Origin: a virus | Length of the DNA: 64,000 nt | Virus record (IMG/VR): IMGVR_UViG_3300009078_000003 | Span: 1-64,000 of that record | Strand: one strand, 5' to 3' | Shown here: positions 1,611 through 54,782 of the stretch, piece after piece | How positions within the stretch are numbered: position 1 is the stretch's first letter | How the letters are laid out: every line of letters begins with the position of its first letter | The notes under the pieces: generated by a model | Told to the model about the DNA's origin: nothing | Seen by the model: the letters and a program-made list of their open reading frames with translations, nothing else | The model's database searches: none | Position numbers and translations under genes: made by a program

Positions 1611-2258
1611 TTAACATCCTATATTTTCATGTGAAATTCCCTTCACCATCCCCCCTGGACTGCTAAAACTGTCCAAAATAGTTGCGGTAAAGCCATTGTG
1701 TTTATAAATCCTGGATCCTGAATCCCAACCTGGGCTTGTTGTAGTATAAGTATTTATACCATCCCAATCTAATCCAAAAACGCTGGCAAGGTTAGGTTCA
1801 AAACTGTCCAGAATTGTGGCTGAAAAGCCGTTATGTTTGTAAACCTTATGTACAGAAGCATCTATGCTAAGTAAATTTGGGCTGTCCCAACACAATTCAG
1901 TCGGGTAGGTATTTGGGCTGCTGAAGCTGTCAAGTATGGTACTTGAAAAGCCGTCATGCTTGTAAATCTTAGTAGCTCCTTGATCGCTGCTAAGAATGTT
2001 TGTCCCATCCCAACTTACACCCATAGGGTTTGTAGTAGGAGTGCTGAAACTGTCCAAAATTGAGGCTGAAAATCCATCATGTTTGTAAATCTTATCTGCC
2101 GTATATACATCAGTACTTAAAATATTTGCTCCATCCCAAGATAGCCCATACGGATAACCTTCAGGGGAGCTAAAGCTATCTAATATTGTGGTTGAAAAAC
2201 CACTATGCTTATAGATTTTATTAACCTGGTCATCTGCACTAAACAGATTTATAGCCAT
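1611..2258 (-). CDS. Five-repeat beta-propeller-like protein, copy 1
   Basis: 215 residues made almost wholly of five repeats of about 43 residues with the core KIYKHxGFSxTILDSFSSP followed by GLxWDGxN. Each repeat looks like one four-stranded blade, and five blades recall tachylectin-2-type lectin propellers (inference). The start MAINLFS is preceded by GAGGAGGT. It ends in the shared tail ENIGC. It is one of four paralogs in 3.5 kb and is probably a host-contact or sugar-binding virion component. Confidence 0.75.
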   Translation of the reverse strand: MAINLFSADDQVNKIYKHSGFSTTILDSFSSPEGYPYGLSWDGANILSTDVYTADKIYKHDGFSASILDSFSTPTTNPMGVSWDGTNILSSDQGATKIYKHDGFSSTILDSFSSPNTYPTELCWDSPNLLSIDASVHKVYKHNGFSATILDSFEPNLASVFGLDWDGINTYTTTSPGWDSGSRIYKHNGFTATILDSFSSPGGMVKGISHENIGC

Positions 2259-2271
2259 CTTAATTACCTCC

Positions 2272-2907
2272 TCAACACCCTGTGTACTCAAGTGCTAGCC
2301 CATAAGAATAAGTTGACGGGCTGCTGAAACTGTCTAGTATTGTGCTTGAGAAGCCATCGTGCTTGTAAATCTTATCTGTTCCAGAGTCAGTGCTATAAAT
2401 ATTTGTGCCATCCCACGAAATACCATGGAGAACACCCCCCGGACTGCTAAAGCTGTCCAGTATGGTGTTTGAAAAACCATTGTGTTTGTAAATCTTACCA
2501 GTTCCGAAATCTGAACTGTAAATATTTGTTCCATCCCAAACCAAACCTTCTGGATAGTGGCCAGGACTGCTGAAGCTGCTGAGGATACTGTTTGAAAAGC
2601 CATTATGTTTATACAGCTTCTCCCCCCAGCTTCCAGCACTGTACAGATTGGTCCCATCCCAGGCCAGACCAGTGTAACCCTCAGCGTATGAACAGTTAAA
2701 ACTGTCAAGTATCGTTGCGCTGAACCCCTGGTGCTTGAATATAGTTCCTTCACCATAATCAGAACTTAAGAGATTGGAGCCTTCCCAAGCCAGACCCCAG
2801 GGTTGATATAATGGGGCACTGAAACTGTCTAGAATAGAAGTGGAGAACCCATCGTGCTTATAAATCTTGTGGGAATCTTCATCAGTACTGAACAGATTTA
2901 CAGCCAT
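2272..2907 (-). CDS. Five-repeat beta-propeller-like protein, copy 2
   Basis: 211 residues with the same five-repeat architecture as the neighbouring copies and a start of MAVNLFS. Repeats two and three diverge most (YKHNGFSNSILSSF). The ATG lies 1 nt beyond the stop of copy 3, with only a weak AGGGTG site, so translation is probably coupled to the upstream copy. It ends in EYTGC. The nearly identical repeat units between copies would allow recombination to reshuffle blades. Confidence 0.75.
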   Translation of the reverse strand: MAVNLFSTDEDSHKIYKHDGFSTSILDSFSAPLYQPWGLAWEGSNLLSSDYGEGTIFKHQGFSATILDSFNCSYAEGYTGLAWDGTNLYSAGSWGEKLYKHNGFSNSILSSFSSPGHYPEGLVWDGTNIYSSDFGTGKIYKHNGFSNTILDSFSSPGGVLHGISWDGTNIYSTDSGTDKIYKHDGFSSTILDSFSSPSTYSYGLALEYTGC

Positions 2908-2908
2908 C

Positions 2909-3547
2909 TTAACACCCTATATTTTCATTAGTTAATCCGGTTGGAGTTCCAGAGGGACTGCTAAAACTATCCAAAATAGTACTTGAAATACCACTGTGTT
3001 TGTACAGCTTGTCAGTACCTGTATCTGCGCTATATAGGTTCGTTCCATCAAAAGTTAGTCCAGATGGCAAACCCCCCGGACTGCTGAAACTGCCTAATAT
3101 TGAAACCGAAAAGCCATTGTGCTTGTAAATCTTATCTGAATAGCATGAGTCGCTTATGAGATTCCCACTAGCCCAAGTAATACCCTGGTCTGCCACACCC
3201 CCTACTGGATCATTAAAAGAACTTAAAATAGTACTGGAGAAGCCATTATGCTTATAAATATGGCTACTCCCCTGATCGACAGAATAAAGATTGCTGCCAT
3301 CCCAAGCCAGATCACGTGGGCCTGTCCCAGGACTGCTGAAACTATCCAGTATTGAAGAGGTAAAGCCGTCATGTTTGTAAAGTTTGTCTGTGGTTGCATC
3401 AGAACTATACAAATTCGTTCCATCAAAAGTCAGCCCCTGCAAGAGAGTACTAGGGCTACTGAAACTGTCTAATATTGAGGCTGAAAAGCCATCATGTTTG
3501 TAGATTTTGTTCGTTGTCCTATCTGCACTAAATATATTTATAGCCAT
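2909..3547 (-). CDS. Five-repeat beta-propeller-like protein, copy 3
   Basis: 212 residues, again five blades with YKHDGFS and ILDSFSSP cores. The start MAINIFS was chosen because GCTGGAGGTAATCAAG precedes it; a longer frame would overlap the deacetylase gene. The fourth blade is longer (GGVADQG insert). The C-terminus ENIGC is identical to that of copy 1. No signal peptide or catalytic motif is visible, so binding is the likely role. Confidence 0.75.
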   Translation of the reverse strand: MAINIFSADRTTNKIYKHDGFSASILDSFSSPSTLLQGLTFDGTNLYSSDATTDKLYKHDGFTSSILDSFSSPGTGPRDLAWDGSNLYSVDQGSSHIYKHNGFSSTILSSFNDPVGGVADQGITWASGNLISDSCYSDKIYKHNGFSVSILGSFSSPGGLPSGLTFDGTNLYSADTGTDKLYKHSGISSTILDSFSSPSGTPTGLTNENIGC

Positions 3548-3552
3548 CTTGA

Positions 3553-4059
3553 TTACCTCCAGCTCTTCCACTGAGCGACTGGATTAAAATACTCAGCACC
3601 GCAGTGTGTATTATAAGGTACCTCCAAGTGCCCATCAAACCACTTGATTGTAGTCTGGTGGGCTATCCCGGCAAAGCCAAGCTTCCTTAATATTCCTTCA
3701 GTCTTGGCCAACACTCTAAATCCTGGAGGCCGGTACAGGAAATTCTCTGGCAGGAAAGGTTTCAGGATATTGGTGGCTGCTTGGATATAAGCCTCCTGAT
3801 CCTCCCTGAAACCTTCCTGCGGTCTCAGATGATCATAGCCATGTACCCCAACTGTAACCCAGTCTTTGTTGGCTACCCACCAATCGAAGAACTCAGAACT
3901 CCTGGATATGTTCTCTATCCCCCGATAGTTGGCAATCACAAAAGCTATCAGTTTTGTCTCAGGATACTGCTCTTTGATCTCAAGCCAGTAATTCCAATAC
4001 TTGAGATTGGAAGGGCAAACATCATCCGTAGTGAGGACTTTATTTTGCCAGGGCCTCAT
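3553..4059 (-). CDS. Polysaccharide deacetylase-like (CE4/NodB fold)
   Basis: 168 residues carrying the order of NodB-homology motifs: TTDD (D12, D13) for the catalytic/metal Asp, HGYDH (H73, H77) for the metal-binding HxxxH, and RPPGFR (R110) for motif 3. It lacks a signal peptide and is shorter than typical CE4 enzymes (about 200 residues). The family removes N-acetyl groups from chitin-, peptidoglycan- or capsule-type polymers. Standing between propeller genes, it may be a virion depolymerising or deacetylating activity. The start overlaps the end of the upstream gene by 20 nt. Confidence 0.7.
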   Translation of the reverse strand: MRPWQNKVLTTDDVCPSNLKYWNYWLEIKEQYPETKLIAFVIANYRGIENISRSSEFFDWWVANKDWVTVGVHGYDHLRPQEGFREDQEAYIQAATNILKPFLPENFLYRPPGFRVLAKTEGILRKLGFAGIAHQTTIKWFDGHLEVPYNTHCGAEYFNPVAQWKSWR

Positions 4060-4501: not shown

Positions 4502-5128
4502 TTAACAACCTGTTTGTTCTAAAGACAAACCCCATGAAAAAGTACCTGGACCACTAAAACTGTCCAGAATAGTTGTGGAAAAACCATTGTGCTTGTAAAT
4601 CCTATCTACACCACTATCTGCACTATACAAATCAGTTCCATCCCATGTTATACCACGAGGCTCTTCACCAGGACTGCTGAAGCTATCCAAAACAGTAGCT
4701 GAAAAGCCACTGTATTTATAAATCTTATCGGTTGATAGATTTGAACAAAGAGTATTTGTGCCATCCCAAGCAACACCCTGCACACCTATTCCTGAACCCT
4801 GGGCAAAACTATCCAATATGGTATTAGAGAAACCATTATGCTTATAGACTTTACCGACCCCATAATCAGTACTGAGGAGATTAGTACCATCCCATTCCAA
4901 ACCTTGATTATAGTGATCCGATCGTAAAAAACTGTCTATAATAGAAGCTGAAAAGCCATCGTGTTTGTAAATTTTATCCCAATAATCACTGTTACTAAGC
5001 ATATTAGTACCATCCCAGGCTACATCAACAGCACCATACTTACCAGCACAGCTGTCCAGAATTGAGGCTGAAAAGCCATCGTGTTTATAAATCTTATTTG
5101 AGTCTTGACTGAATAGATTTATAGCCAT
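4502..5128 (-). CDS. Five-repeat beta-propeller-like protein, copy 4
   Basis: 208 residues with five repeats of the YKHDGFSASILDS / WDGTN pattern. It is separated from the other three copies by the deacetylase and an unknown gene. The start MAINLFSQDS has AGGAGG upstream, and the end EQTGC resembles EYTGC of copy 2. The first blade lacks the FSSP loop (replaced by CAGKYG). It was probably made by the same duplication series as the other copies. Confidence 0.75.
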   Translation of the reverse strand: MAINLFSQDSNKIYKHDGFSASILDSCAGKYGAVDVAWDGTNMLSNSDYWDKIYKHDGFSASIIDSFLRSDHYNQGLEWDGTNLLSTDYGVGKVYKHNGFSNTILDSFAQGSGIGVQGVAWDGTNTLCSNLSTDKIYKYSGFSATVLDSFSSPGEEPRGITWDGTDLYSADSGVDRIYKHNGFSTTILDSFSGPGTFSWGLSLEQTGC

Positions 5129-5137
5129 AACTTCCTC

Positions 5138-6472
5138 CTACGAAAGCAGATCCTCTTCTCTAATTAACGAATGCCGCTGTATCTGGTCAGGATTAAACTG
5201 AGCTTCCTCAACCAGTCTCTTCAAACTCAGGACTTTGTCAGAGGGAATCAAGCCAGCCCTATTTGCCAGGTAAGATAATATCTGATCCGGGGTCTTACAT
5301 TTGAGATATTCTACTGCCGGCACACTGTTCCTAAACTTTGAAAACTTGTAATAATCAGAATCCAGAATCTCCCCATGCATGATATTGTTTGGCACATAAT
5401 TGATCAGCTTGCCAGCTTCCGCTTCCAACAAAGTAAATGGCTCAATATCATAACCCCTGAAAGTGTGAGTAACCCGGAACTCCTGGTCATCTATCGCTGA
5501 AGTAAGAGCCAGATCTGCCACACTGTAAATCCACAATACAGTGTCCGGGATCTCCAGATTATGAGCGATTGTCCGAACAACTGTCTCTGGCTTATCAAGA
5601 TCCAAGTAAGGAATATGCCTGTTTCTGCAAAAACCGTCATAGCAGTACTCTCTCCTAACAGTCCGCATATATTTAATGGGTATTATCAACAGCTCTTCAC
5701 ACTCAACAGGAGCAAACGATACTGAATCTTCAAAATCCGATGCATAGGGAAAATCCCCACCCACCGGGTGATAGCAAAACTTATTTGGCTTAATTACCCT
5801 AGCTACCTCCTGTTTGTCAGCCATAACTTTCCATTCCCGCCATGGATAGTCTTTATAGATAATCGTAACATGCTGCACCCAGGTCTTTTCTTCAAACGCA
5901 ATTCTTATAATAGGCGTTTCATCACCAAAATACCCAACGTCATACGGCTGCCAGTATTCACTAGGGTCCTTGTTCAGTACATTTTCGATGGGATCTCGGG
6001 TTGTAGACAAATTCGCAGAAATACTAGTTCCAGGCACAGTGTTCAGCACATTCTGCTTGTTAAAATTGAAAACCTTTATCTGAACAATAGCCGAAGGCGC
6101 AGGGTATTTTTCATCCCTACTCATAATCCTAACCGGGGACCCTTCACTAGCTCTTCGTGTTATATCTGCTGCAGAACAATCGCAGAAATAGACATCCGGC
6201 CTGTCAAGCAATTCCACCATCTTCTGCCTGTATAATTCTCTCCGATCAGACTGCTTCACCACGAAATCAGGTGTAATTCCAAAAGCAATCAGATCCTCCA
6301 GAAAGTAATTCTGCAGGCTTACACGCTCCCCAGTAAGCTTGATCCCATCCAGTCTGAGAAAGAAGGTCCCCTTATTCTGCTTTGCCCAGATATAGTTATA
6401 CAGGACATTAACCAAATGTCCGATGTGCAAACGTCCAGAGAGTGAAGGTGCAAATCTTGTGGTTACTTTCAA
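5138..6472 (-). CDS. GluQ-RS/glutamyl-tRNA synthetase-like enzyme with an inserted beta-sandwich domain
   Basis: 444 residues. The N-terminus matches class Ic synthetases: RFAPSLSGRLHIGH with the HIGH motif at 16-19, LRLDG at 39-43, then QSDRRELY. A zinc knuckle like that of GluQ-RS (CxC then YxxxC) is present as C97/C99 and Y278/C282, but about 170 residues are inserted between its two halves. The insert (roughly 125-272) has a discoidin/galactose-binding look. The catalytic core resumes with TSAIDDQEF and THTFRGYD, and KFSKF (376-380) stands in for KMSKS. There is no anticodon-binding domain, as in GluQ-RS. The reaction is probably amino-acid adenylation, but the acceptor is unknown. Its ATG overlaps the stop of the upstream gene by 4 nt within the glycan cluster. 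Confidence 0.75.
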   Translation of the reverse strand: MKVTTRFAPSLSGRLHIGHLVNVLYNYIWAKQNKGTFFLRLDGIKLTGERVSLQNYFLEDLIAFGITPDFVVKQSDRRELYRQKMVELLDRPDVYFCDCSAADITRRASEGSPVRIMSRDEKYPAPSAIVQIKVFNFNKQNVLNTVPGTSISANLSTTRDPIENVLNKDPSEYWQPYDVGYFGDETPIIRIAFEEKTWVQHVTIIYKDYPWREWKVMADKQEVARVIKPNKFCYHPVGGDFPYASDFEDSVSFAPVECEELLIIPIKYMRTVRREYCYDGFCRNRHIPYLDLDKPETVVRTIAHNLEIPDTVLWIYSVADLALTSAIDDQEFRVTHTFRGYDIEPFTLLEAEAGKLINYVPNNIMHGEILDSDYYKFSKFRNSVPAVEYLKCKTPDQILSYLANRAGLIPSDKVLSLKRLVEEAQFNPDQIQRHSLIREEDLLS

Positions 6473-7506
6473 TGCAGGACCTCCACAACCTTCTCAATAA
6501 GCTGGGTCATATTCAATCTCTGCGAAGAAGGAACTACAGGCACCTCATAAGAATACCCCAAAGGAAACTGCACCGTAATCCTGGAATTGGAAGGCCAGAA
6601 GTTCTTATCCGGTATCACTGTCAGTATCCTGGAATCCAAAGGCAGTATTCTAACACTGACAGCATCCATCATCCCTGCCAGCAACCCCATGTGGAGCCTT
6701 CCACTAAGAACTTCTGGCCTTCCAAACATGTGAAGTGCCATCCAATCAAGATCTGAAACATACCTAGCATTCTCCAAACCCAAAGTTACCGCTGAGTAGG
6801 TATCCTCCGCAGAGACTGAATAAACGTCCGCCCCTTTTGTTTTAGCATACTCCACCTGGATACGCAAAAACTCATTTAGGTAGCCCTCTGGCAAAGAATT
6901 CTTAGACAAAGAATATCTTGGATCTTGAAAAATACAAAGGGGGCTACTTATAAATCCCCTTCTTCGGAGCGTTTGTAGTGCCCACCTGGAGGTATCTTTT
7001 GACAGATATGATTGTATACCCAATTTACTAAACACAGCCTGAGCCATTGCGTCTCTGGTTACAACCAAATCAAATCCCCCAAAAAGAGTTGAGATATAGT
7101 TTATCGTCTGTGGGAATAGCACCAGCTCACTGTAAACCTGGTCAAAAGAATCAAACTTTACTAGTCTGCTGGAATCAACAGCATATAAGGGAAAACAGGA
7201 ACCTACACCTAAAGCTATCTTCTTGGCCTGGGGGAACCTTAGTATAGCTTTCAAGAGAACCTGAGCCTTCAAAGAATGCTCAAGACCAAACCATAACCAA
7301 GGAGAGCCTGCCAAAACCAAGATGTCCACATCTCCCCAATAAAATTGGCTCATGTAGGTATCCAACTCTTTCTCAGCCCTAAGAGCATCAAACATCAGGA
7401 ACTCTACATCCGGGTCTACTGTCCTCAGAATCTCTTGGGTACCCCTGTAAGTAAGCAGGTCCCCGATATTATAATTTGAAGTTGGGTGCAGAACTAAGAC
7501 TCTCAC
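6469..7506 (-). CDS. Polysaccharide pyruvyl transferase-like protein
   Basis: 345 residues. The start HPTSNYNIGDLLTYRG matches the N-terminal strand-loop of the polysaccharide pyruvyl transferase superfamily (N-x-GD). Middle elements VDILVLAGSPWLWFG and DLVVTRDAMA, plus a late SGRLHMGLLAG (histidine-containing, like the family RxHxxxxA), complete the pattern. Known members add ketal pyruvate from phosphoenolpyruvate to sugars, and others act as glycan-modifying transferases. It overlaps both neighbours by 4 nt, so it is tightly co-translated with the synthetase-like and radical SAM genes. Confidence 0.72.
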   Translation of the reverse strand: MRVLVLHPTSNYNIGDLLTYRGTQEILRTVDPDVEFLMFDALRAEKELDTYMSQFYWGDVDILVLAGSPWLWFGLEHSLKAQVLLKAILRFPQAKKIALGVGSCFPLYAVDSSRLVKFDSFDQVYSELVLFPQTINYISTLFGGFDLVVTRDAMAQAVFSKLGIQSYLSKDTSRWALQTLRRRGFISSPLCIFQDPRYSLSKNSLPEGYLNEFLRIQVEYAKTKGADVYSVSAEDTYSAVTLGLENARYVSDLDWMALHMFGRPEVLSGRLHMGLLAGMMDAVSVRILPLDSRILTVIPDKNFWPSNSRITVQFPLGYSYEVPVVPSSQRLNMTQLIEKVVEVLH

Positions 7507-9332
7507 AATTTACTCCTTATTCTGTCATACAGCTGATGTGTAGCTTCCAGCTGCTCTGGTGTCTTAACTGCCCTGTCAAAGTGGTACAAATGAGGGACCA
7601 TGGCCTTACCTACCAAAGCCTCCGGCCTAAAACCTTCATGTAGCTTCCCAAACCACCGGACTTTCCCATCCACCCTTAACAACTTGGGATTCTGGGAAGG
7701 ATACGACTCAGGCCACATAACCTGGGTTCTTTCCAGATCAGCATAGTACCTGTGTGGCAATTTCCACCCATCGTAGTTGTTACTCTCCAACAGAGGCCAG
7801 ATCTCCGGGAAGTCTTCCCCTACCTGCATATCAGAGTCAACATAAAGCGCCCATTCTGTTTCTACAAATTCCAGTGCCTTATTTCTTACCGCAGCAAAGT
7901 CATCCACCCAGTCAATGTGCTCTACTCTTATCCTATAGGTTCTTACAATCTCTACAGTATCATCCGTAGACCCGGTATCACACACCAGGACTTCCACCCC
8001 ATTAAACCCGACAACATTATCCAGACAATATCTTATATAGTTTCCATTGTTCTTTGTAAGGACAACAACAGTCAGCTTACCCTTAGCTCCCGTCTGTCTG
8101 TTCCGTTTGTACTGCCCAGGCAGGAACCAGCTGTTAGTGATTCTTTTGACCTCATCTATAATCCCGCAATATTCAAGATAGCTGGCATCAAGGAGCCTGG
8201 GGTTATGGTAGTCATACAAACTCAGGGAGCCAAAATCCATATTGTCATGAACAGTCCCCCGCTTCTTTGCAATATCCCAGAACTCTGTCCCTGGATAAGG
8301 AGTGGCTACATGGAACCAAAATTTGCCGGTCTTTACTTCCTGGCACCAGCGCATCAGATCGAGTGTCTGGTTCATATCTTCTATGGTCTCTGTGGGAGCG
8401 CCAAACATATAACTGCCATTTACGTTGATATGGTTTTCCAGGGCTGTAAGGGTGTTCTGTTTGAGGTTAGCAACACTAGCTCTTTTACTGGCCTTCAGGT
8501 ACTTCAAGATCCTATCAGACCCAGACTCAAATCCAGTGTTAATATTTGTAACCTTTAACCTCTTCAAGCGTTCCCACAGGTCTGGCGAGAGAGGATCACA
8601 GAACCTTGCCTGAATGTGCATATACTTAATTTTATCCAGCAACCCTTCCCGCACCAGGGCATCATACAATTCGTCAAGCCGGGACTCCCCTATGAAAGCG
8701 TCATCCCAGATACCCAACCCCTGACCATATTTGAGGGCACTGGCTATTTGCTTGATAAGCTTATCCATACTCAGCTTCCGGTAGCCTTTCTCAAACTCTG
8801 TAGAACAGAAAACACACCGGAAGGGGCAGCCTCTGGCTGTCATTGTCCATATTATTTCAGACCTACGCACAAACTTATCATAGTTCAAGCTAGGGAGCTC
8901 TGCCTCTGTAAGTTTACCCACACTGCCAACTTTAAATCCCTTAATGTGGGCATTCTCAATCTCCTCAAGAGGTACTCCTTTAATCAGTTGCTCCACAGCC
9001 TTCTCAGCGTCTCCCCTAATAACAGCATCAAACACTGTACCCCGCAAAGAGGCCGGCAAAGGAGTTGTGTGGTGGCCCCCAATCACCATAAGACCACCAA
9101 ATCCCTGGTCCCTGAACTCCCCGGCCAGCTTGGCAACAACATTAAAATCAACAGTACTGCTGTAGAAACCCAGGATGTCCGGCTGAAATGTTCTAACATC
9201 CTGCTGCAGCTTGTGCTTAGGCCCATAGGAAACCTGGATATGAGCATCATCATCTATATAGCTAAGGATAGATAACGCTCCCAAATAAGAGGCTCCAAGC
9301 CAGTCCGGGACCATGAGCAGGAATTTCTTCAT
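7503..9332 (-). CDS. B12-binding-type radical SAM protein fused to a family 2 glycosyltransferase
   Basis: 609 residues in three parts. Residues 1-135 look like the Rossmann B12-binding domain of the radical SAM/B12 class (DILGFYSST, VIGGHHTT). Residues about 160-400 form a radical SAM barrel with the 4Fe-4S motif C169-P-F-R-C173-V-F-C176. Residues 419-609 are a GT2 domain: TVVVLTKNNGNYI, CDTGSTDDT and the DSD metal motif at 499-501. The canonical B12 His motif DxHxxG is not obvious, so cobalamin use is uncertain. The fusion suggests radical modification and glycosyl transfer on one substrate. Confidence 0.78.
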   Translation of the reverse strand: MKKFLLMVPDWLGASYLGALSILSYIDDDAHIQVSYGPKHKLQQDVRTFQPDILGFYSSTVDFNVVAKLAGEFRDQGFGGLMVIGGHHTTPLPASLRGTVFDAVIRGDAEKAVEQLIKGVPLEEIENAHIKGFKVGSVGKLTEAELPSLNYDKFVRRSEIIWTMTARGCPFRCVFCSTEFEKGYRKLSMDKLIKQIASALKYGQGLGIWDDAFIGESRLDELYDALVREGLLDKIKYMHIQARFCDPLSPDLWERLKRLKVTNINTGFESGSDRILKYLKASKRASVANLKQNTLTALENHINVNGSYMFGAPTETIEDMNQTLDLMRWCQEVKTGKFWFHVATPYPGTEFWDIAKKRGTVHDNMDFGSLSLYDYHNPRLLDASYLEYCGIIDEVKRITNSWFLPGQYKRNRQTGAKGKLTVVVLTKNNGNYIRYCLDNVVGFNGVEVLVCDTGSTDDTVEIVRTYRIRVEHIDWVDDFAAVRNKALEFVETEWALYVDSDMQVGEDFPEIWPLLESNNYDGWKLPHRYYADLERTQVMWPESYPSQNPKLLRVDGKVRWFGKLHEGFRPEALVGKAMVPHLYHFDRAVKTPEQLEATHQLYDRIRSKL

Positions 9333-9892
9333 GTAATACCCCCCTCTGCCACAAAAACACCAACTGTTCTAAAGGGGAACTGCCATAAAAAGGGTCCAAG
9401 GGTCTTGAGGAGCTCCTCATACTGCCACTCATAAAGATGCTTCTCATAGATGTTCTCTTTGTAATCTGTCTCTGGCTGCCCTAAATGACCGTACCCCCGG
9501 AACCAGGGCCTAAAAGGTGCCAAAGGAAGAGACAACCACAAGAACTTGGTCCTCTGCTTAAGCCTTACCCAAGTCTGTATAGCCTCATCTTTATTAAGGT
9601 GTTCCAGGACATCGCCAAGAATAATGAGATCGTAAACTGTTTCTGCAAATGCAGCCTTCTGGATATCACAGACATAAATTGTGCCGTACTTTTCCAGAAG
9701 GCAGTACCTGTCAACATAGGGAGCAAATATCTCTACGGCCTCAACACATGCCTCCGGCTTGACACTCTTTATTATATCACAGTAAATACCCAACCCAGGC
9801 CCCACATCCAGCACTGTACTTATCTGGTCTTTGAAAGTCTGAAACCAGTCCTCAAATAAAAGTTTTCCTTCATTTGCACTGCTGGGCATCAC
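9329..9892 (-). CDS. SAM-dependent methyltransferase, class I
   Basis: 187 residues. Motif I VLDVGPGLGIY (from about residue 28) binds S-adenosylmethionine, an acidic residue ends the second strand (AVEIF), and DLIILGDVLEHL is the DxxxxxxVLEH signature of sugar/small-molecule methyltransferases. It overlaps both neighbours by 4 nt. The substrate is probably a sugar or nucleotide-sugar of the same cluster (inference). Confidence 0.78.
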   Translation of the reverse strand: MMPSSANEGKLLFEDWFQTFKDQISTVLDVGPGLGIYCDIIKSVKPEACVEAVEIFAPYVDRYCLLEKYGTIYVCDIQKAAFAETVYDLIILGDVLEHLNKDEAIQTWVRLKQRTKFLWLSLPLAPFRPWFRGYGHLGQPETDYKENIYEKHLYEWQYEELLKTLGPFLWQFPFRTVGVFVAEGGIT

Positions 9893-10407
9893 TTCACCTT
9901 CTTTATGATAATGTCAAAAGACCAGCGATTGTGAAGAGAATCAAAGCTCAGGAGTTCATACCTCCAACCCATACTGGATATGATTGAAAGCATATCCTCC
10001 GGCCAGTAGTCTCTGGTATGTGCCGGGTTGGCATCCGGGTGGCCCACGTGGGGGTAGTGGTCCCCATGGGGAGTCAGAGTAAACAACACTCCCCCAGGTT
10101 TAAGTATACGCCAACACTCTTCAAGACCTTCTCTTGGGTCCACCAGATCTTCCAAAATGTGGGAAGCCACCACAAACTCAAACTGCTCATCCTGAAACAT
10201 GTGCAGGTTCCTGATATCTGCAACAATCTCAGGCTCTGCTCCAGGCCACTTATCCACTTCAGTCAGCCGGCCTCTCCACCATTGTTTATCAGCATTCTTC
10301 GGATCTGACTGGTGTAGCGGCCCGCACCCCAGGTCCACCCCCGTCTTAGGGGTCACACCATACTCACCAAGATACTTCTCTAGTAATTCCCGCTCACTCT
10401 GTATCAT
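9889..10407 (-). CDS. SAM-dependent methyltransferase, Methyltransf_11-like
   Basis: 172 residues. Motif I GVDLGCGP, acidic EIVADIRNL, then EFVVASHILEDL and WRILKPGGVLF, the post-motif strand found in Methyltransf_11 enzymes. A histidine-rich loop (HGDHYPHVGH) follows and may hold the substrate or a metal. It is unlike the adjacent methyltransferase in sequence, so two separate methylations are likely. It is part of the overlapping gene chain from GT9 to the synthetase-like gene. Confidence 0.78.
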   Translation of the reverse strand: MIQSERELLEKYLGEYGVTPKTGVDLGCGPLHQSDPKNADKQWWRGRLTEVDKWPGAEPEIVADIRNLHMFQDEQFEFVVASHILEDLVDPREGLEECWRILKPGGVLFTLTPHGDHYPHVGHPDANPAHTRDYWPEDMLSIISSMGWRYELLSFDSLHNRWSFDIIIKKVK

Positions 10408-10409
10408 AG

Positions 10410-11546
10410 CTATCTCATCATAAAGTCTTTCTGGCCTACCTGGCCAGCATCTGTCACCATGTACTTTGGATAGGTGTCAACTAACACCTCGTTCAAGAGT
10501 TCCTCCCCGTACATATTATAAAAGATAGCACCAGGAGGGGCTTTTCGTACTAGACTGTATCCCCCAGTAAGCCACACAACATGGACATCTTGGGCACCCT
10601 TATTGAACACATGCCACTGTACTTTGTCTGTGATCCACCGCTCCTCAACAGAACGGCTCGGCAAAGCCTTAATCTGCTTCTGGTATATAGAACCCTTTAG
10701 CATTCTCATCATGGTCTGCATTACATGGTAGCTTGGCCTCTTTTCCCCACTCTCAGCCACTAACCCCCACCCTTCGTACTGAAGGGCAAACCATATTGAA
10801 TAATCAATACCCATAGAATTAAACAGGATATTCTGCTCTAACAGAGAAACTGCCTGCCGCTCCGGAGTTTGTATTATATGATAAAATGCTGGATCCCCGG
10901 AACAGGGAACTCCAAACTCAGAGACCACTATAGGCTTAGAAACCTCCCACGTAGCAAGGAGTTCATTAACTTTTCCCATCCCAACGAATATGTTTTTGGT
11001 TCCCCCATAACCATAAACGTAAAAATTGAGACTAACAAAATCCAAAACATCACCTATCCAGTAACCTAGGCATTCTCGCAGAAAGCCACTTCTGTCATCG
11101 TTCCCTAAGAGACCATTAAACGTGGGGGTAATCCAACCACAGCCCCCTATTGTGTTCTCAGGATCTATCTCTTTGCCTGTGTAATAAAAAGCTGACATCA
11201 AATCTACAAACTGCTTTGGGCTCCCCCCAAACCTGCACCCAGCCTGATCCGGTCTTGTTTCTGGCTCTCCACCAAAATCCCAGATACTGATAAGCCCGTT
11301 GTACTTCTTGAACATATCAGCAAAATGGTTCTTTGGAACCTGAACCGTGTTCTTCGGCAGTACGAGCTTCCCAATCAACTTCGTCCCAGAATCAACTACC
11401 TCTTTGCAGACATCAATCGAGGGTTGATATATGTGTAGCGGCAGCTGAACCAGGTCCGGCTTCACTTCCAAAACCAGATTCTTGTACTTGTCCAAACTCC
11501 CCGCTAGAGCTACCCCATACTGACTGATCTCCCACTTTTGTATCAT
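10410..11546 (-). CDS. Glycoside hydrolase-like TIM barrel (clan A type)
   Basis: 378 residues. An alternating strand/helix pattern is followed by SIWDFGGEPE (E94/E96), which resembles the acid/base NEP motif of clan GH-A, and by PIVVSEFGVP (E210), which resembles the nucleophile strand. The C-terminal third (VQWHVFNKGAQDVHVVWL) is probably a beta-sandwich. The best family match is cellulase or GH39/GH5-like, but I cannot place it exactly. GGAG lies 7 nt before the ATG. The gene starts inside the end of the GT9 gene (134-nt overlap in another frame). Confidence 0.65.
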   Translation of the reverse strand: MIQKWEISQYGVALAGSLDKYKNLVLEVKPDLVQLPLHIYQPSIDVCKEVVDSGTKLIGKLVLPKNTVQVPKNHFADMFKKYNGLISIWDFGGEPETRPDQAGCRFGGSPKQFVDLMSAFYYTGKEIDPENTIGGCGWITPTFNGLLGNDDRSGFLRECLGYWIGDVLDFVSLNFYVYGYGGTKNIFVGMGKVNELLATWEVSKPIVVSEFGVPCSGDPAFYHIIQTPERQAVSLLEQNILFNSMGIDYSIWFALQYEGWGLVAESGEKRPSYHVMQTMMRMLKGSIYQKQIKALPSRSVEERWITDKVQWHVFNKGAQDVHVVWLTGGYSLVRKAPPGAIFYNMYGEELLNEVLVDTYPKYMVTDAGQVGQKDFMMR

Positions 11547-12519
11547 CTTTCATCTCCTTACCGTTAGAAAGCAATTTTCTAAGAGAGGACATTACCATCT
11601 CAGGTGTTATGCTCTTCATACAAACCATATAATAAGACACATCCCTACAGGCCCCCATCTGCCAATCCCAACAAGGGCAGATCTTGCAGGTATCCTTCAA
11701 GAATAAAATCTCCTTGCTGCCGTAATACTTTACCCGGAACCTAGGATCAATAGGGCCAAAAAGCCCAACAAAGGGGATACCCAGAAACCCACAAGCGTGG
11801 AGTATTCCTGAATCCACCACTATTGCAGCTGAACACTGAGAAAGAACAGAGAACAACTGCATGATATTAACCCTTCCAGTAAGATTTATAAGACCAGCCC
11901 TCTTTTCAAGCTTAACAAACTGATTGTGCAGAAGAACAATGGCATACTCCCTACTCAGGAGGGTCCCAACAACCTCTTCCCAATTAGGCCAAGACCGTAT
12001 TGGAGCAGTAGCCCAGGGAGCTAAGGCTATAATCCTGTTATTCCCAAACTCCTTCAGCTGGGTTCTTCCCCAATCCCCCCAGGCAGGGTCTACCTTAATC
12101 CTGTAATTAGCAACAACATCAGAAGGTCTAAGACCAACACCCATAGCCATAAGATCAAGTCTATGGTAAGCAGCACAGTGGGGCAAGTAATCTACCTTGT
12201 CCTGAAGATTAACTATAAAGGAACCAGTAGAACTACCATCCAAACAGACAGAGTCTACCAATTTCAGTTTTGTTATAAGTTTTTTGTACGGTGGGCTGGT
12301 TATCAGATGGACTTTACAAAACTTTGGGGGCAGTTTTCTACGCAGACTGTGGGAAACCAGAGCAGCCATCAGGACATCCCCTAAGCCTTTCGTTCTCCTA
12401 ATATAAACGTCCAGCTTTTTATGACAAGAAAGCTCTGCCAGGGTACCCTCAGCTACCCCATGAATGAATAAAGACTTTCCAGGAGTAGCCGGTGGGGCAG
12501 GCTTATGGAAAGTTGGCAT
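11413..12519 (-). CDS. Glycosyltransferase family 9 (heptosyltransferase-like)
   Basis: 368 residues. RRTKGLGDVLMA is the GT9 N-terminal signature (R-x-K-x-x-GD). Later elements are IIALAPWATAPIRSWPNWEEVV, VVDSGILHACGFLGIPFVGLFGPIDP (the GT-B donor site with the conserved D-S-G/P-x-H-x-A-A pattern, here HACG), and a Cys-rich segment CKICPCW. The family transfers heptose or other sugars from nucleotide donors. The last 45 codons (acidic, Gly/Ser-rich) overlap the next gene in another frame, so the true enzyme probably ends near residue 325 with a dispensable tail. Confidence 0.75.
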   Translation of the reverse strand: MPTFHKPAPPATPGKSLFIHGVAEGTLAELSCHKKLDVYIRRTKGLGDVLMAALVSHSLRRKLPPKFCKVHLITSPPYKKLITKLKLVDSVCLDGSSTGSFIVNLQDKVDYLPHCAAYHRLDLMAMGVGLRPSDVVANYRIKVDPAWGDWGRTQLKEFGNNRIIALAPWATAPIRSWPNWEEVVGTLLSREYAIVLLHNQFVKLEKRAGLINLTGRVNIMQLFSVLSQCSAAIVVDSGILHACGFLGIPFVGLFGPIDPRFRVKYYGSKEILFLKDTCKICPCWDWQMGACRDVSYYMVCMKSITPEMVMSSLRKLLSNGKEMKDDTKVGDQSVWGSSSGEFGQVQESGFGSEAGPGSAAATHISTLD

Positions 12520-29971: not shown

Positions 29972-31099
29972 CTATATATGTTTCCAAGAAATTCCCAATT
30001 TTATTCGACTTATCATTTCACGAGAAACGCCAAACTGCCTAGCAATTTCACTACCGGATAGTCCATCGTTTAACAGAGCTTTTATCTTCAAAACATTTTG
30101 CCTTGCCAATTTAATTACTGGCCTATCTGGTCTCTCCTTTACCTTACCTGGGTAGCCCCAACAAACTTTTCTCCTTGCCCACTCTAAGAGCCCCTCTGGA
30201 ACTCCAAACTCTTTAGATATCTCCTTAGTTAGTTTACCTTTTAAGAAAGAAAGCTTAACCAACCGAACCTTGTTTTCTGATAACCCACCTTCTTTCTGTA
30301 AGTGTTCACTAACCTCAGCATCATCCCTATTAGATTTGTAAGACCCTAGATACATGTGAGTGGGAGAAATGCAATTCCGTCTATCGCAAACATGACACAC
30401 CAGCTTTCCTTTAGGAACATCCCCAACAAAAGTTGCGTAAGACAATCGAGTAACACTAAACCTTTTCTGCCCTATCCCTAATTCCAAAGATTTTCCCTCC
30501 CAAAGCCAACAATGGGATTCCGGGTCAATCTGTACTCTTGATAAAAGTATCTGAGCCAGATCAGTTTTCCTTTTAACAGATATTGCTTTATATCTTGTTC
30601 CCTCAATAGCCCCTTTAGGCATATCCACCAGTCCCTCTGGGTCACCTGAGCGCCTCCAACGATCATAATGCACATTACAATACCCATGAGCATGAGCAGG
30701 CTCTGAGCAGCCTTTAACAGAACATTCCCCACGTACCCGAGAGAAGTTTGCCAGAGGGTCTCCATACAACTCCCACCTCTTATAGTGCTTTGAACACAAC
30801 CCACGGGCCTGAACAGGGTTCTCACAACCCTCAATAGAGCAAATAGGATTTTCCTTTCTTGATATCCCGCCATAATTAATCTTTAAAGGATCCCCATATT
30901 TTTTAAAGCGCTCATAATGTTTTCTACAATAACCTTTACCAAAGTGCTTTCCATCACAACCCTCAACAAGGCACCCTATCCGAGGACCTGGAAAGACAAT
31001 CTCAGGATCACCATATTTTCTAAACCTTTCGTAATGATAACTACAATAACCTTTTGCATAGTGCTTTTGATCACATCCAACAATTGAACACTTTTTCAT
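29972..31099 (-). CDS. HNH homing-type endonuclease with four tandem Cys/His fingers and a C-terminal HTH
   Basis: 375 residues. The first 150 contain four repeats of about 35 residues with C-x4-C then GYCxxHYxRW (for example GYCSYHYERFRKYGDP). The HNH core follows (LVCHVCDRRNC then SPTHMYLGSYKSNRDDA). The C-terminus (GSEIARQFGVSREMISRI) is a helix-turn-helix. The layout is that of free-standing HNH genes that copy themselves between phage genomes. It splits the tail tube gene from the chaperone gene and has its own promoter-like sequence. Confidence 0.82.
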   Translation of the reverse strand: MKKCSIVGCDQKHYAKGYCSYHYERFRKYGDPEIVFPGPRIGCLVEGCDGKHFGKGYCRKHYERFKKYGDPLKINYGGISRKENPICSIEGCENPVQARGLCSKHYKRWELYGDPLANFSRVRGECSVKGCSEPAHAHGYCNVHYDRWRRSGDPEGLVDMPKGAIEGTRYKAISVKRKTDLAQILLSRVQIDPESHCWLWEGKSLELGIGQKRFSVTRLSYATFVGDVPKGKLVCHVCDRRNCISPTHMYLGSYKSNRDDAEVSEHLQKEGGLSENKVRLVKLSFLKGKLTKEISKEFGVPEGLLEWARRKVCWGYPGKVKERPDRPVIKLARQNVLKIKALLNDGLSGSEIARQFGVSREMISRIKLGISWKHI

Positions 31100-32058: not shown

Positions 32059-32071
32059 AATTTATTCTCCT
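32050..32071. repeat. 22-bp direct repeat, tail-gene copy
   Basis: 22 bp covering the ribosome site, ATG and first codons of the tail tube gene. An exact second copy lies at 32706-32727, upstream of the inserted HNH-AP2 gene. Confidence 0.85.
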
Positions 32072-32682
32072 CATAAGATATTCAAACAGGCAAACTCACC
32101 AAAATATTTTTCAGCTGCTTCATTGTAAGCCAGAGCTGCTTCCTTCTCTGTAAGGAATGAACCTAAATAAATACACATACCATCCAGGTAAATCCTTGCG
32201 TAGTAGGGCTTTGACCTATCTTGTAACACAACACCTTTATATCTTGATAGCCCACCTCTTTGAGGTTTCTGGTTAAATTGATTTTGTTGATTTGTACAGG
32301 GTCTAAGATTCAACCGCCTGTTATTCAGACTGTCTCCATCTATATGATCCACCCACCTAGTATGCAAAAGTAGTTGGTGCAAAAATGCAAAACCTTCTTT
32401 GGATTTCCCAGAAATACGTACATACTTTCTTCCTGAAAAATTATACTTATAAGGTTTTACAATCTCATAATCAGCCCTATCCACAACAGCACTTGCTATT
32501 TTATTTCCACTCCTGTCATACAAAAGAATGTGACAGTCATTTCCATAAAACTCAAATTCCTGTGGGAGGCTTCTATTCCTTGCAATCGGAAGTATTTTAC
32601 CAAACCTTCTCATTTGCAAATAATGACGGTTACAATAACCTAATTTACCGTCATCCCCTTTGCACCAATGAACTTTACACAT
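32071..32682 (-). CDS. HNH-AP2 homing endonuclease
   Basis: 203 residues. One Cys/His finger (CKVHWCKGDDGKLGYCNRHY), an HNH core (WVDHIDGDSLNNRRLNLR, residues about 109-127), and a C-terminal AP2-type domain (SRYKGVVLQDRSKPYYARI, YLGSFLTEKEAALAYNEAA). This combination is typical of phage homing endonucleases. The ATG follows, after 2 nt, a nine-codon frame that duplicates the start of the tail tube gene, so the enzyme seems to use a copied ribosome site. Confidence 0.85.
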   Translation of the reverse strand: MCKVHWCKGDDGKLGYCNRHYLQMRRFGKILPIARNRSLPQEFEFYGNDCHILLYDRSGNKIASAVVDRADYEIVKPYKYNFSGRKYVRISGKSKEGFAFLHQLLLHTRWVDHIDGDSLNNRRLNLRPCTNQQNQFNQKPQRGGLSRYKGVVLQDRSKPYYARIYLDGMCIYLGSFLTEKEAALAYNEAAEKYFGEFACLNIL

Positions 32683-41507: not shown

Positions 41508-41864
41508 TTATTTTAGCAATTCCCAGGTTCCATTAACTAAGGCTTCCACCTTTAAATTCTCGGGGAGCATCATCTCTGCCACAAGTTCCTCAAGAGTTTT
41601 CCCCTGAATAACCTCATCTGCCTTACGATTAAGCCACAACTTAAATTCCTGGTTACTAGCAAGATTCTTAAAAGCTTCTCTGATGTTGGACTGCCTATCC
41701 CGATTAGACTGGCCTGTGACAACAACACCAGATTCAGAGTGTGTTATACGGACACAATTCTGGTGCTTGTTCCTGTATTGACCACCAGCACCAGTACCGG
41801 AATAATAGTCTATTCTCAAATCTTTCTTAGTAACTGAAAACAGTAATTCTCTTTTGATGCTCAT
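41508..41864 (-). CDS. GGQ peptide-release-factor-like protein
   Basis: 118 residues, starting at the ATG that overlaps the TnpB-gene stop (ATGA). It has the RF-1 catalytic motif GTGAGGQ (G27-G28-Q29) and RNKHQNCVRITH with the conserved R/N-x-x-x-x-VR pattern. Codon-recognition domains are absent, as in ArfB/YaeJ-like rescue factors. The C-terminal helix is basic but shorter than the ArfB tail. It could release stalled ribosomes or hydrolyse peptidyl-tRNA. It has no ordinary ribosome site, and a 6-bp hairpin covers the region before the ATG. Confidence 0.75.
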   Translation of the reverse strand: MSIKRELLFSVTKKDLRIDYYSGTGAGGQYRNKHQNCVRITHSESGVVVTGQSNRDRQSNIREAFKNLASNQEFKLWLNRKADEVIQGKTLEELVAEMMLPENLKVEALVNGTWELLK

Positions 41865-42928
41865 CGGGCACCGCCCGACGATTCCAGAACTCCGAGGCTG
41901 CACCCCAGCCCAGACTTGAGAATTACTTTAGCCGCATTGACGTCGCGGTCGTGTTGCGCCCCACAAGCGCCACATTTCCAAGTCCTTACAACAAGCCCGC
42001 TTAATCCAGTAGGTCCTGTTAAGGAACCACAAATTGAACAGGTCATGGTGGTGTATTTCGAATCAACCAAGACAACTTTTCTACTGTGCTGAGCACCCTT
42101 GTAGATAAGGAATTGTCTTAATTGAGAAATACCCGCGTCTGAAACCGACTTGCCAAATATTTTGGCTTGTCCACGCAGGTTATCGTTGGTGATGTAAATT
42201 TCTTTAAAGTTTTGAACTATTTGTCGAGAAACTTTATGGTTATAATCCTTCCGTCTACTTGAAATTCGTTCGTACAGTCTTGCAGCAAGTTTCTTTCTAC
42301 CACCGCGTTGTGCTTGAGCAAGTCGTTTTTGTCCTTTGACAAACTCCCTGCCGTTGGAAAACTTCTTACCAGTGGATAGTATGGCTAAGTCTTTGAATCC
42401 AGTGTCAATACCGACTGCTTCGTCAGTGTTTTCAACTGGAAAAATGTGGACTGTATCAATACAGATCTGACAATACCAACCCAAGGCGCGCTTAACTATG
42501 CGAGCTTGCTTGATTGAACCTTCCGGCAAGTCTTGTTTGTAGAAACGAACACTTTTTAATCCAGGCAGAGAAATTCTATTTTCGGAAATACGCTTTCCAT
42601 TTAGTGGGTCTGGAAAACAAATTGACCGCAGCTTGTTTCTAACGGACTTAAGTTTGGGTTGTTTAGAAACCTTCTTAAAACACCTCTCCCATGCATTATA
42701 AGCCTGAAGAATAGTAGCCTGTATTGTGTGAGAAGGAATGTCCAACTTTTTGGACACACCAGAGAGGCTGTTTTGGAAGGCTAACTTTCTGTGATAAATT
42801 TTGTCTTGCGCATCCAGCTCTATCTTTCGAGAAGCCCAATTATAAACACCAGTAAGACACCACAACCACTCGTTGAGTGTAGCTTCCTGTCTTTTTGTTG
42901 GTTTAAGTTTTAATTCTCTTACAAGCAT
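41861..42928 (-). CDS. tnpB: TnpB-like RNA-guided nuclease family protein, possibly catalytically dead
   Basis: 355 residues from the ATG with GGAAG upstream. RuvC-I Asp in AVGIDTGFKD (D175), zinc ribbon C297/C300 and C319/C322, RuvC-III in HDRDVNAA (D329). The RuvC-II strand reads IYITNDNL (247-251), with no Glu at the expected place. In the subgroup where that Glu is moved to an REWxC site, this protein has VRTWKC (T316). No tnpA-type gene is nearby. It lies in the late operon, minus strand, with its stop overlapping the next gene. Confidence 0.75.
   Translation of the reverse strand: MLVRELKLKPTKRQEATLNEWLWCLTGVYNWASRKIELDAQDKIYHRKLAFQNSLSGVSKKLDIPSHTIQATILQAYNAWERCFKKVSKQPKLKSVRNKLRSICFPDPLNGKRISENRISLPGLKSVRFYKQDLPEGSIKQARIVKRALGWYCQICIDTVHIFPVENTDEAVGIDTGFKDLAILSTGKKFSNGREFVKGQKRLAQAQRGGRKKLAARLYERISSRRKDYNHKVSRQIVQNFKEIYITNDNLRGQAKIFGKSVSDAGISQLRQFLIYKGAQHSRKVVLVDSKYTTMTCSICGSLTGPTGLSGLVVRTWKCGACGAQHDRDVNAAKVILKSGLGCSLGVLESSGGAR
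41864..41878 (-). promoter_or_regulatory. Hairpin at the TnpB stop/release-factor start
   Basis: TCGGGC/GCCCGA stem of 6 bp with a 3-nt loop covers the last TnpB codons and touches the release-factor ATG. It may be part of a 3' omega-RNA-type structure, or it may mask the start. Confidence 0.4.
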
Positions 42929-43064
42929 TTTTGTCACTTCCAAAATCACCCACCCAAAAACTAGACTACTTTCTATGGATAAAGAACCCCTCTGACCCCT
43001 AATATGCCTGGATAGAAATTGACAACAAACCTTGAGGCTACCGAGCCTGAGAAAACAAAGAACT

Positions 43065-52114: not shown

Positions 52115-52453
52115 ATGGATAGTGCAGAAATAGGAAAAGATTTACGGATTTTACAGAATCTTGCATGGGCTTTGGATAAGCCCCTGGAAGAGGCGCTTTC
52201 CATAGTCATTCAAAATGCAGTGAGAAAGAGAGACTACCCGAAGATCTGTTTAGCCTGCAAAAGGCCGGACAGTTGCTCAGGGTGTTTCTTTCAGCCCAAG
52301 GATCCCTTGAGTATTGAAGAAATCAGGGATTGGCTGTGGCATCACCCCTGGAGTCACCCCGATTGGTTGTATGCCAAACAGGGGACAGATAAATACATAG
52401 AGATGAACAGGGAGAGGTTGTCCCAGTTTATCCAAAAGGAGGAAAGATTATGA
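52115..52453 (+). CDS. Cys-containing small protein upstream of the AAA+ gene
   Basis: 112 residues: helical N-terminus (IGKDLRILQNLAWALDKPL), a Cys cluster (CLACKRPDSCSGCFF) and Trp-rich helix (IRDWLWHHPWSHPDWLY). It overlaps the MoxR-type gene by 4 nt, so it may work with that ATPase. Not recognised. Confidence 0.58.
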   Translation: MDSAEIGKDLRILQNLAWALDKPLEEALSIVIQNAVRKRDYPKICLACKRPDSCSGCFFQPKDPLSIEEIRDWLWHHPWSHPDWLYAKQGTDKYIEMNRERLSQFIQKEERL

Positions 52454-53454
52454 AGGCAAGTATGGTAGAAGTTCTCCTGGAGAAGGCTATTCGGGGTTTC
52501 CGGCCAGTCCTTCTTGTAGGAGCGCCTGGTGTAGGGAAAACAAGCCTGACAGATCAGGTGAGAGATCGCCTGAAATGTGACATGCTGGTTTCCCACCCGG
52601 TTGTAAATGATCCAACAGATGCAAAAGGAATGCCTGCCATAGTGAAGGGCAAGGCTCTATTCCTTCCCTTTGGAGATCTGGAGTATGTCATATCCTACAA
52701 GGGAGAACTGTTGATCTGGTTGTTAGATGATATTGGACAGGCCCCTCCAGCAGTTCAGGCCAGCTATATGCAGCTGCTCTTGGCCAGGAGAATCAACGGC
52801 CACAAACTCCCCAATTCAGTGGTGTTTGTTGCAGCCACAAACAGGAGGGGAGATCGAGCTGGAGTCTCGGGGGTTCTGGAGCCAGTAAAAAGCAGGTTCC
52901 ACATGATTATTGAGTTGGAGGCAGACGCTGAAGACTTGATAAAGTGGGGGATGAAAACAGGGAAGCTCAGAAAAGAAGTCTGTGCTCTTCTCAGGCTATT
53001 CCCGGAGTTGCTGATAGAGCCCCCGGCCAAGGACATAAAGCCAAGTGTGTGCCCAAGGGTATGGGAATTCTGCTCACAAACTCTGGATGACTTTGACAAC
53101 ACAGAACATCTGTTTAGTGCTCTGTGTTCCACAATAGGGGATGGGCCGGCTGCTCAGTTATATGGACTGATGACAGTATTCAGGGATCTTCCCACTGTGG
53201 CCTCTATAAAGAAATCCCCAGAGGGAGCCAAGTTACCGGAGAAGCCTTCAGGGTTTCACGCAATGAGCACTGTACTCAGCAAGCACTTGGGGAAACACCC
53301 AGAAGATGTCTCCCCAATATTCTCCTATGTAGAGAGAATGCCTGGAGACTTTGCGGTGTGCACTATCAGAGATACCCTGACAATAAGGCCAGAACTGGCT
53401 GATACTGAGGCGTTTCAGAAGTGGAACGCAAAGAATGTCGGCTTGTTCATATAA
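52450..53454 (+). CDS. MoxR-type AAA+ ATPase
   Basis: 334 residues. Walker A GAPGVGKT (24-31), Walker B LIWLLDDIGQ (D93-D94), and sensor-1 VAATNRRGDR. The domain order matches the MoxR/CobS/NorQ group. These ATPases work with VWA-domain partners as remodelling chaperones. Downstream are a helical protein and an HExxH/VWA protein, so the three probably form one module. Confidence 0.85.
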   Translation: MKASMVEVLLEKAIRGFRPVLLVGAPGVGKTSLTDQVRDRLKCDMLVSHPVVNDPTDAKGMPAIVKGKALFLPFGDLEYVISYKGELLIWLLDDIGQAPPAVQASYMQLLLARRINGHKLPNSVVFVAATNRRGDRAGVSGVLEPVKSRFHMIIELEADAEDLIKWGMKTGKLRKEVCALLRLFPELLIEPPAKDIKPSVCPRVWEFCSQTLDDFDNTEHLFSALCSTIGDGPAAQLYGLMTVFRDLPTVASIKKSPEGAKLPEKPSGFHAMSTVLSKHLGKHPEDVSPIFSYVERMPGDFAVCTIRDTLTIRPELADTEAFQKWNAKNVGLFI

Positions 53455-53475
53455 CAAATAATAGGAGGCAGTATT

Positions 53476-53781
53476 ATGTATGAAATTCACATTACAGAGA
53501 CAGCAAGAAACTCTCTCAAAGAAGAAGCTCACAGTTTCAATAGTTTCCGGCGGGAGCTCCCTGATATTGATTCAGTCAAGGGTGCTCTGATTGATATGTA
53601 TGGAAAACTCCCAAAGGGAAGGCAAAAGGTGTACATAGACACACTTTCCGGCGAAACACAGGAAGTTGGCTTCCTACACTCTTTCTGGAACAGAGACGTT
53701 TCTCACAACTCAAAATCCTGGTACCAAACCGACTGGATTTCTATATACGAGGTAACAAGAAAGCCAGTCAAAATTATCTAA
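53476..53781 (+). CDS. Small unknown protein
   Basis: 101 residues with a charged, alpha/beta makeup (YEIHITETARNSLKEEAHSF, IDTLSGETQEVGFLHS). The C-terminal KPVKII is basic. Located inside the AAA+/VWA module. Not recognised. Confidence 0.55.
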   Translation: MYEIHITETARNSLKEEAHSFNSFRRELPDIDSVKGALIDMYGKLPKGRQKVYIDTLSGETQEVGFLHSFWNRDVSHNSKSWYQTDWISIYEVTRKPVKII

Positions 53782-53812
53782 CCCTAACAGGCAGCATAAT
53801 CAGGAGGTTATT

Positions 53813-54718
53813 ATGCCAAACATCTCAGAAAAAGCGGTTCTTGTCAGGTTGAGTCTGTCCCAGTGGACAGCAAGGAAATACGACAAACGTGTTTCCTTGG
53901 AGATTGCCGGACAGCATGGAATCGATGCGGATCTCGGGAGATATAACAAGGTGCTGGTGGACAGCAATGAGATCAAGAAGATTTCCAAGGTGGCCAATGC
54001 CACCAGAACTTTCTTCTATACAAACACCCTCCCCTGGTCAGCTGAGTACTGGATACGTCCTACTCAGGGGTACATGCAGTTTATGACATACCTGGGGGAA
54101 TATAGGGCAGAGTTTGATTCCAAAGTCCGGGACTTCTGTGGACTGTATGAACAACTGAGGGAAGATGCCCGAAGGAACCTGAAGGGGATATTTAATCCCA
54201 GTGACTATCCCCCTGTAGGAGCTATTAGCAATAAGTTCGGGTTCAGCGTAAATGTAATGCCCTTGGCAGGGGCGAAGGACTTCAGGATTGACCTATCCCA
54301 GGAAGAGGTTGATCAGATGGGCAGGGCTCTGGAAGCTCAGAATAAACGGGCTGTCCAACAGGCCATGAAAACAGCCTGGTACAGACTATATGAGGCTGTG
54401 GCCCACATGTCAACCAAGCTGAATGACACAGGGAGCAAGCAGATATTCCGGGATTCCCTGGTAGGAAACCTTGAGGAACTGACAAAGATTCTACCTGTGC
54501 TCAACGTAGCCAATGACCCAGAGCTTACAAGGATGTGTGATGAGGTAGAGCACCAGCTCTGTAGCTTTGATCCTGAAAATCTGAGGGCAGATGACAAAGC
54601 AAGGCAGACCACCGGAAGGGCAGCTATGTCTCTGGCAAAGGAACTGGAAGAGATAATAGACAAGCAGGTGGTAACTGAGGAGGCAGACCTGCTTGACAGT
54701 ATTATAAATGGCCTGTAA
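53813..54718 (+). CDS. Helical partner of the AAA+/VWA module (DUF3150-like)
   Basis: 301 residues. VRLSLSQWTARKYDKRVS start and a long helical body (DSKVRDFCGLYEQLREDARR, AQNKRAVQQAMKTAWYRLYE). The size and position between MoxR ATPase and VWA protein recall DUF3150 proteins found in the same neighbourhood in other phages. I recall this from memory and cannot verify it. The function is unknown. It ends 64 nt before the next gene. Confidence 0.58.
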   Translation: MPNISEKAVLVRLSLSQWTARKYDKRVSLEIAGQHGIDADLGRYNKVLVDSNEIKKISKVANATRTFFYTNTLPWSAEYWIRPTQGYMQFMTYLGEYRAEFDSKVRDFCGLYEQLREDARRNLKGIFNPSDYPPVGAISNKFGFSVNVMPLAGAKDFRIDLSQEEVDQMGRALEAQNKRAVQQAMKTAWYRLYEAVAHMSTKLNDTGSKQIFRDSLVGNLEELTKILPVLNVANDPELTRMCDEVEHQLCSFDPENLRADDKARQTTGRAAMSLAKELEEIIDKQVVTEEADLLDSIINGL

Positions 54719-54726
54719 TTTAACAG

Positions 54727-54764: not shown

Positions 54765-54782
54765 TAAGTGAGGAGAACAAAT

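Follow-up and report, generated by a model that had tools for sequence, protein, structure and literature searches.

The window analysed here, 64,000 nucleotides of an IMG/VR virus record with a full length of 64,089 bases, carries on its minus strand a gene for a protein that resembles a glutamyl-type aminoacyl-tRNA synthetase (Table 1). The open reading frame has exactly the coordinates proposed in an initial annotation made from the sequence alone. It lies on the minus strand and has 444 codons, and the plus strand of the same interval is broken by stops. The TTG start overlaps the TGA stop of the upstream gene, and GGAGGT lies 6 nt ahead of it, so the gene looks like an ordinary, translationally coupled member of a late-direction operon. 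All motifs listed in that annotation occur at the residues given for them: HIGH (16–19), LRLDG (39–43), QSDR (74–77), IDD (327), VTHTFRGYD (334–342), and KFSKF (376–380), as well as the zinc-type residues CDC (97–99) and Y278...C282.

Table 1. Features of the synthetase-like gene and its neighbours, in window coordinates.
Feature	Position	Strand	Basis
GT2/GT21-like glycosyltransferase	967–1617	−	PF00535, 1.3e-7
DUF2334/polysaccharide deacetylase-like	3553–4059	−	PF10096, 1.3e-6
Synthetase-like gene, 444 aa, TTG start	5138–6472 (including stop)	−	ORF list; Pfam, NCBIfam and profile matches
C-terminal catalytic-core half, residues 321–434	5171–5512	−	Own E-value 2.9e-5; pLDDT mostly 88–97
KFSKF, residues 376–380, KMSKS-type loop	5333–5347	−	K379 aligned in 61/61 relatives
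IDDQEFRVTHTFRGYD, residues 327–342; R339 aligned with the acidic-side-chain arginine	5447–5494	−	Alignment with relatives
Residues 283–320, connective-peptide remnant, no recognisable similarity	5513–5626	−	Profile gap; RxDG and PTY missing
Y278-D-G-F-C282, second zinc-knuckle half	5627–5641	−	Shuffle probability 1.25e-4
Insert, residues 100–277, probably all-beta	5642–6175	−	No family match; low-confidence models
C97-x-C99, first zinc-knuckle half	6176–6184	−	Aligned with CxC of relatives
N-terminal catalytic-core half, residues 1–110 (RFAPS, HIGH, LRLDG, QSDR)	6143–6472	−	PF00749; pLDDT mostly 90–98
GGAGGT Shine-Dalgarno, 6 nt before TTG	6479–6484	−	Read from sequence
Polysaccharide pyruvyl transferase, overlaps start of synthetase-like gene	6469–7506	−	PF04230, 8.8e-7
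B12-binding radical SAM fused to GT2 glycosyltransferase	7503–9332	−	PF04055, 8e-17; PF00535, 6e-17
Two small methyltransferases	9329–10407	−	PF08241/PF13489
Possible glycoside hydrolase	10410–11546	−	No Pfam match; weak PDB glucosidase match, E 0.023
GT9 heptosyltransferase-like	11413–12519	−	PF01075, 2.8e-13

The gene had been described as lying among glycan enzymes within phage late genes, and the Pfam matches of its neighbours agree with this. An NlpC/P60 gene is also present, on the same side of the synthetase-like gene as the deacetylase-like gene, the GT2 gene and a set of repeat proteins. The latter are four related proteins (1611–3571 and 4502–5128 of the window) built of 41-residue repeats (KIYKHDGFS...ILDSFSSP; 123-nt period), which by eye resemble beta-propellers. 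Taken from their longest starts, the GT9 gene and the gene of the possible hydrolase share 134 bases; the hydrolase probably begins later than that.

Both halves of the protein's catalytic core match the glutamyl-type class Ic family, as the motifs had led the initial annotation to propose. Residues 2–109 match Pfam PF00749 (tRNA-synt_1c) at 1.9e-24 (86.6 bits; curated cut-off 23.4). The C-terminal half is not detected by Pfam and was recognised with a profile of 61 phage relatives from which the query was excluded: residues 273–444 alone gave an E-value of 2.9e-5, the joined core gave 2.6e-30, and none of 200 shuffles of the C-terminal half was reported at E ≤ 10. Unguided alignment with the 61 relatives in MAFFT places HIGH, the DD pair, the RG arginine, and the second KFSK lysine in the family columns, and the HIGH- and KMSKS-type motifs align in all or nearly all of these relatives. 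Full-length MAFFT alignments with few sequences misaligned the C-terminal half, which did align once all 61 relatives were included. The protein ends about 65 residues past KFSK, and no anticodon-binding domain was found, again in line with the original description. Structure prediction, which had been suggested as a check, models the two core halves with confidence: AlphaFold2, supplied with an alignment of relatives, gave a pLDDT of mostly 88–98 for residues 1–110 and 321–430 and mostly below 50 for the remainder. Foldseek searches returned GluRS and GluQRS structures, among them the GluQRS 4a91 (TM 0.67 by target length) and the GluRS 6b1p (E 3.7e-16). Because the AlphaFold2 alignment contained GluRS relatives, the modelled fold is consistent with the homology rather than independent evidence for it.

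The two halves are separated by a region of altered architecture. The profile stops at residue 111 and resumes at 322: in place of the whole connective-peptide region, about 73 profile positions long, stand some 210 residues that show no similarity. In the GluRS/GlnRS class, this region contains the domain that binds the acceptor end. The distance from C99 to Y278 is about 178 residues, compared with 11–23 in relatives that have the zinc motif. For YDGxCR, on the far side of the insert, the shuffle probability is 1.25e-4, so the zinc half-motifs at either end of the insert are probably genuine, and the idea of a zinc knuckle split by a long insert is probably right. This part of the AlphaFold2 model has a pLDDT below 50. 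The further proposal of a discoidin-like beta-sandwich found no backing in our searches. Against a 10-sequence discoidin profile the insert scored −1.6 bits, within the shuffle range; its residues 117–277 (161 aa) matched nothing in Pfam at E ≤ 10 except DUF807 (E 0.024); and it had no match in the PDB, nor did anything else in the window or in the fetched loci resemble it significantly. Modelled alone, the insert is all-beta at low confidence (pLDDT 41), and the top Foldseek matches of this low-confidence model are often galactose-binding-like (DDR1, a chitosan-binding CBM, neuropilin), none of them significant (E ≥ 1.1, probability ≤ 0.11). From these models, the insert is probably all-beta.

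Among named families, the protein matches GluRS, GlnRS, and GluQRS exclusively. GluQRS (TIGR03838) ranks first in NCBIfam with 90.9 bits, short of its curated cut-off of 276.7, and bacterial GluRS ranks fourth with 74 bits; all matches are far below their cut-offs. The protein is unmatched by PADLOC. In a tree of 50 proteins, its end branch measures 5.4 against a median of 0.25, about twenty times as long and too long for placement; holding it with GluQRS is neither supported nor rejected (p-AU 0.42). The fitting name for the protein is ‘divergent glutamyl-type synthetase paralog’ rather than GluQRS. The earlier label ‘GluQ-RS-like’ thus named the top-ranking family correctly, but with a score far under the cut-off and no placement in the tree it is a best guess only.

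Like GluQRS (YadB, tRNA glutamyl-Q(34) synthetase), the phage protein has a glutamyl-type class Ic core without an anticodon domain, the residues of a CxC...YxxxC zinc motif, and an arginine at the acidic-side-chain position; GluQRS activates glutamate without tRNA (PMC9437257). Unlike GluQRS, it has the long C99–Y278 interval, its connective peptide is unrecognisable, and EDxDxxR, RxDG, and the Y are lost. With GluRS (GltX) it shares the catalytic core, the HIGH-/KLSK-type motifs, and IDD...THxxRG, but it has no C-terminal anticodon-binding domain and its acceptor-binding region is replaced. Short GluRS-like proteins of other phages (about 260–325 aa) are likewise phage-borne and free of an anticodon domain; they differ in keeping nearly all tRNA-side motifs (DDTDxxR, GxPTY), in mostly missing the zinc knuckle, and in having no insert. 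These short phage forms, together with the top rank of GluQRS and the p-AU of its grouping, speak for a genuine GluQRS- or GluRS-type enzyme that charges or modifies a tRNA, with the insert as an extra tRNA-binding domain. We nevertheless regard such an enzyme as quite unlikely, given the score so far under the GluQRS cut-off, the unrecognisable connective peptide, and the loss of EDTDxxR, RxDG, and PTY, motifs that, with few exceptions, are present exactly or as close variants in both GluQRS and the short phage forms. Moreover, the window has no tRNA gene, and the record, which may be incomplete, has no Rfam RNA and no QueC (queuosine/7-deazaguanine modification).

The 61 phage relatives have 28 near-invariant columns; the protein matches them at 16 and departs from them at 12, compared with 21% identity elsewhere. 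The kept columns belong mainly to the ATP/adenylation site, together with R339 (R6, P9, S10, G13, H16, G18, R40, D328, D329, K379), and the losses include P11, D43, D45, R48, G317, Y321, and R380. An apparent loss of H365 is probably an alignment shift, as H366 aligns in another alignment. Three otherwise near-invariant motifs are gone, namely EDTDxxR (DGIKLTG here), RxDG, and PTY; GluRS uses EDTDxxR and PTY near A76 and glutamate. From the E, Y, and R of GluQRS, positions that we take to have glutamate-binding roles, the arginine is kept as R339, the glutamate corresponds to D42, and the tyrosine to L321. Because the Y321 position is presumably an amino-acid contact in GluRS/GlnRS, its loss means that glutamate specificity, or activity itself, may have been lost.

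The main rival to an active enzyme is a catalytically dead synthetase fold that serves for binding or as a scaffold, for example in the virion or in host takeover, with the insert as its working part. The extreme length of the end branch, the loss of residues as close to invariant as those listed above, and the presence of the gene in one phage only, within the searches made, all fit such a protein. Against it, a sequence with 21% identity elsewhere has retained R339, HIGH, the DD pair, and both KFSK lysines, which points to selection on catalysis, and we consider a dead fold unlikely. The retention of activation residues, the loss of tRNA-side residues, and the replacement of the acceptor-binding region lead us instead to an enzyme that would have kept amino-acid activation and acquired a new acceptor. 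What speaks most strongly in the sequence for a changed acceptor is the loss of the remaining acceptor-binding region and of several near-invariant residues. The initial annotation, which had noticed the insert, missed these losses, and the change is larger than it described.

We therefore favour, at a little short of an even chance, a predicted aminoacyl-adenylate ligase that has moved to a non-tRNA acceptor. It would be an ATP-dependent ligase derived from a glutamyl-type (GluRS/GluQRS) catalytic domain, forming the aminoacyl-AMP of an acidic amino acid, which is probably glutamate, and transferring this amino acid to an acceptor other than the tRNA 3′ end. The insert between the zinc-knuckle halves, in place of the connective peptide, would present the new acceptor. 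MshC offers a functional likeness: this CysRS paralog ligates Cys to GlcN-Ins, following a glycosyltransferase and a deacetylase (PMC9736012). As a class I synthetase paralog that couples an amino acid with a sugar amine, and whose pathway includes both of those enzymes, MshC may show how the phage protein works, but it derives from CysRS rather than GluRS and is not a homologous case. Given the gene neighbourhood and this analogy, the acceptor of the phage ligase would most likely be a component of a glycan or glycosylated virion surface produced by the neighbouring enzymes, such as a sugar amine released by the deacetylase-like protein encoded nearby. To our knowledge, MshC has no insert of this kind.

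In its most specific form, the proposal is an aminoacyl:glycan ligase of the GluRS line in which the tRNA acceptor-binding domain has been swapped for a glycan-binding insert and which decorates surface sugars with glutamate. This version is tentative, well short of likely, and the same modest chance applies to its reading as an MshC counterpart of independent origin acting on phage or host surface sugars. We infer the link to glycans from the gene neighbourhood in a single phage. The acceptor could instead be a protein (a tail protein or beta-propeller) or a metabolite of the radical-SAM/methyltransferase branch. The B12-radical SAM/GT2 fusion, the methyltransferases, and the four repeat proteins next to the gene are in keeping with this, and PoxA provides a precedent for protein aminoacylation by a synthetase paralog (PMC3542578). 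No specific link to any such candidate was found, and most recognisable neighbours act on sugars, so we hold a protein or metabolite acceptor to be improbable. Few synthetase paralogs are known to have non-tRNA acceptors (MshC, PoxA, and some others). One that derives from GluRS, and in which the acceptor-binding region itself has been exchanged, would illustrate cleanly how this fold is put to new use, and it would direct attention to amino-acid-decorated glycans in phages.

Searches of viral contigs, by protein and with a back-translated DDx4[VI]THxxRGYD pattern, gave no relative bearing the insert, and tblastn against annotated phages matched only the N-terminal part, in ordinary enzymes. 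A protein search of genome contigs, which detects near-identical 8-mers only, also returned no insert-bearing relative. The same was true of 395 genomes from the phylum of a Desulfobacterales MAG and of 395 and 392 genomes from two further phyla (about 1,180 genomes in all, covering three large phyla, with E-value limits of 1e-15 or stricter). The phyla were chosen via MAGs holding related terminases and may not include the host. The lack of relatives is provisional, as it reflects this threshold over these genomes and near-identical 8-mers elsewhere. Relatives of the radical SAM–GT2 fusion, the pyruvyl transferase, and the possible hydrolase were not found either.

A tRNA-synt_1c gene occurs in none of 22 related-phage records, many of them fragments. 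Piece-by-piece comparison with five related phages shows conserved structural genes, whereas all that these phages share with the glycan island is an NlpC homologue and weak matches to GT2 and GT9. Absent from the related records and located in a non-conserved island, the synthetase-like gene is probably accessory cargo. Four terminase relatives with 45–48% identity come from MAGs of Desantisbacteria, Paludibacteraceae, Desulfobacterales, and Mollicutes. This spread over four unrelated groups is probably binning noise, and it makes host assignment from MAGs unreliable for this phage group.

Elsewhere in the window, a TnpB-like protein with a zinc-ribbon end (41861–42949) and two proteins that look like HNH-type or repeat zinc proteins (29972–31099 and 32071–32682) were seen by eye among the structural genes, and an early-direction module (52450–55901) combines an AAA ATPase with DUF3150 and DUF2201 (metallopeptidase/VWA). 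The short, anticodon-domain-less GluRS-like proteins of other phages form a group of 17, often from very large phages, with 14 falling in one supported tree clade.
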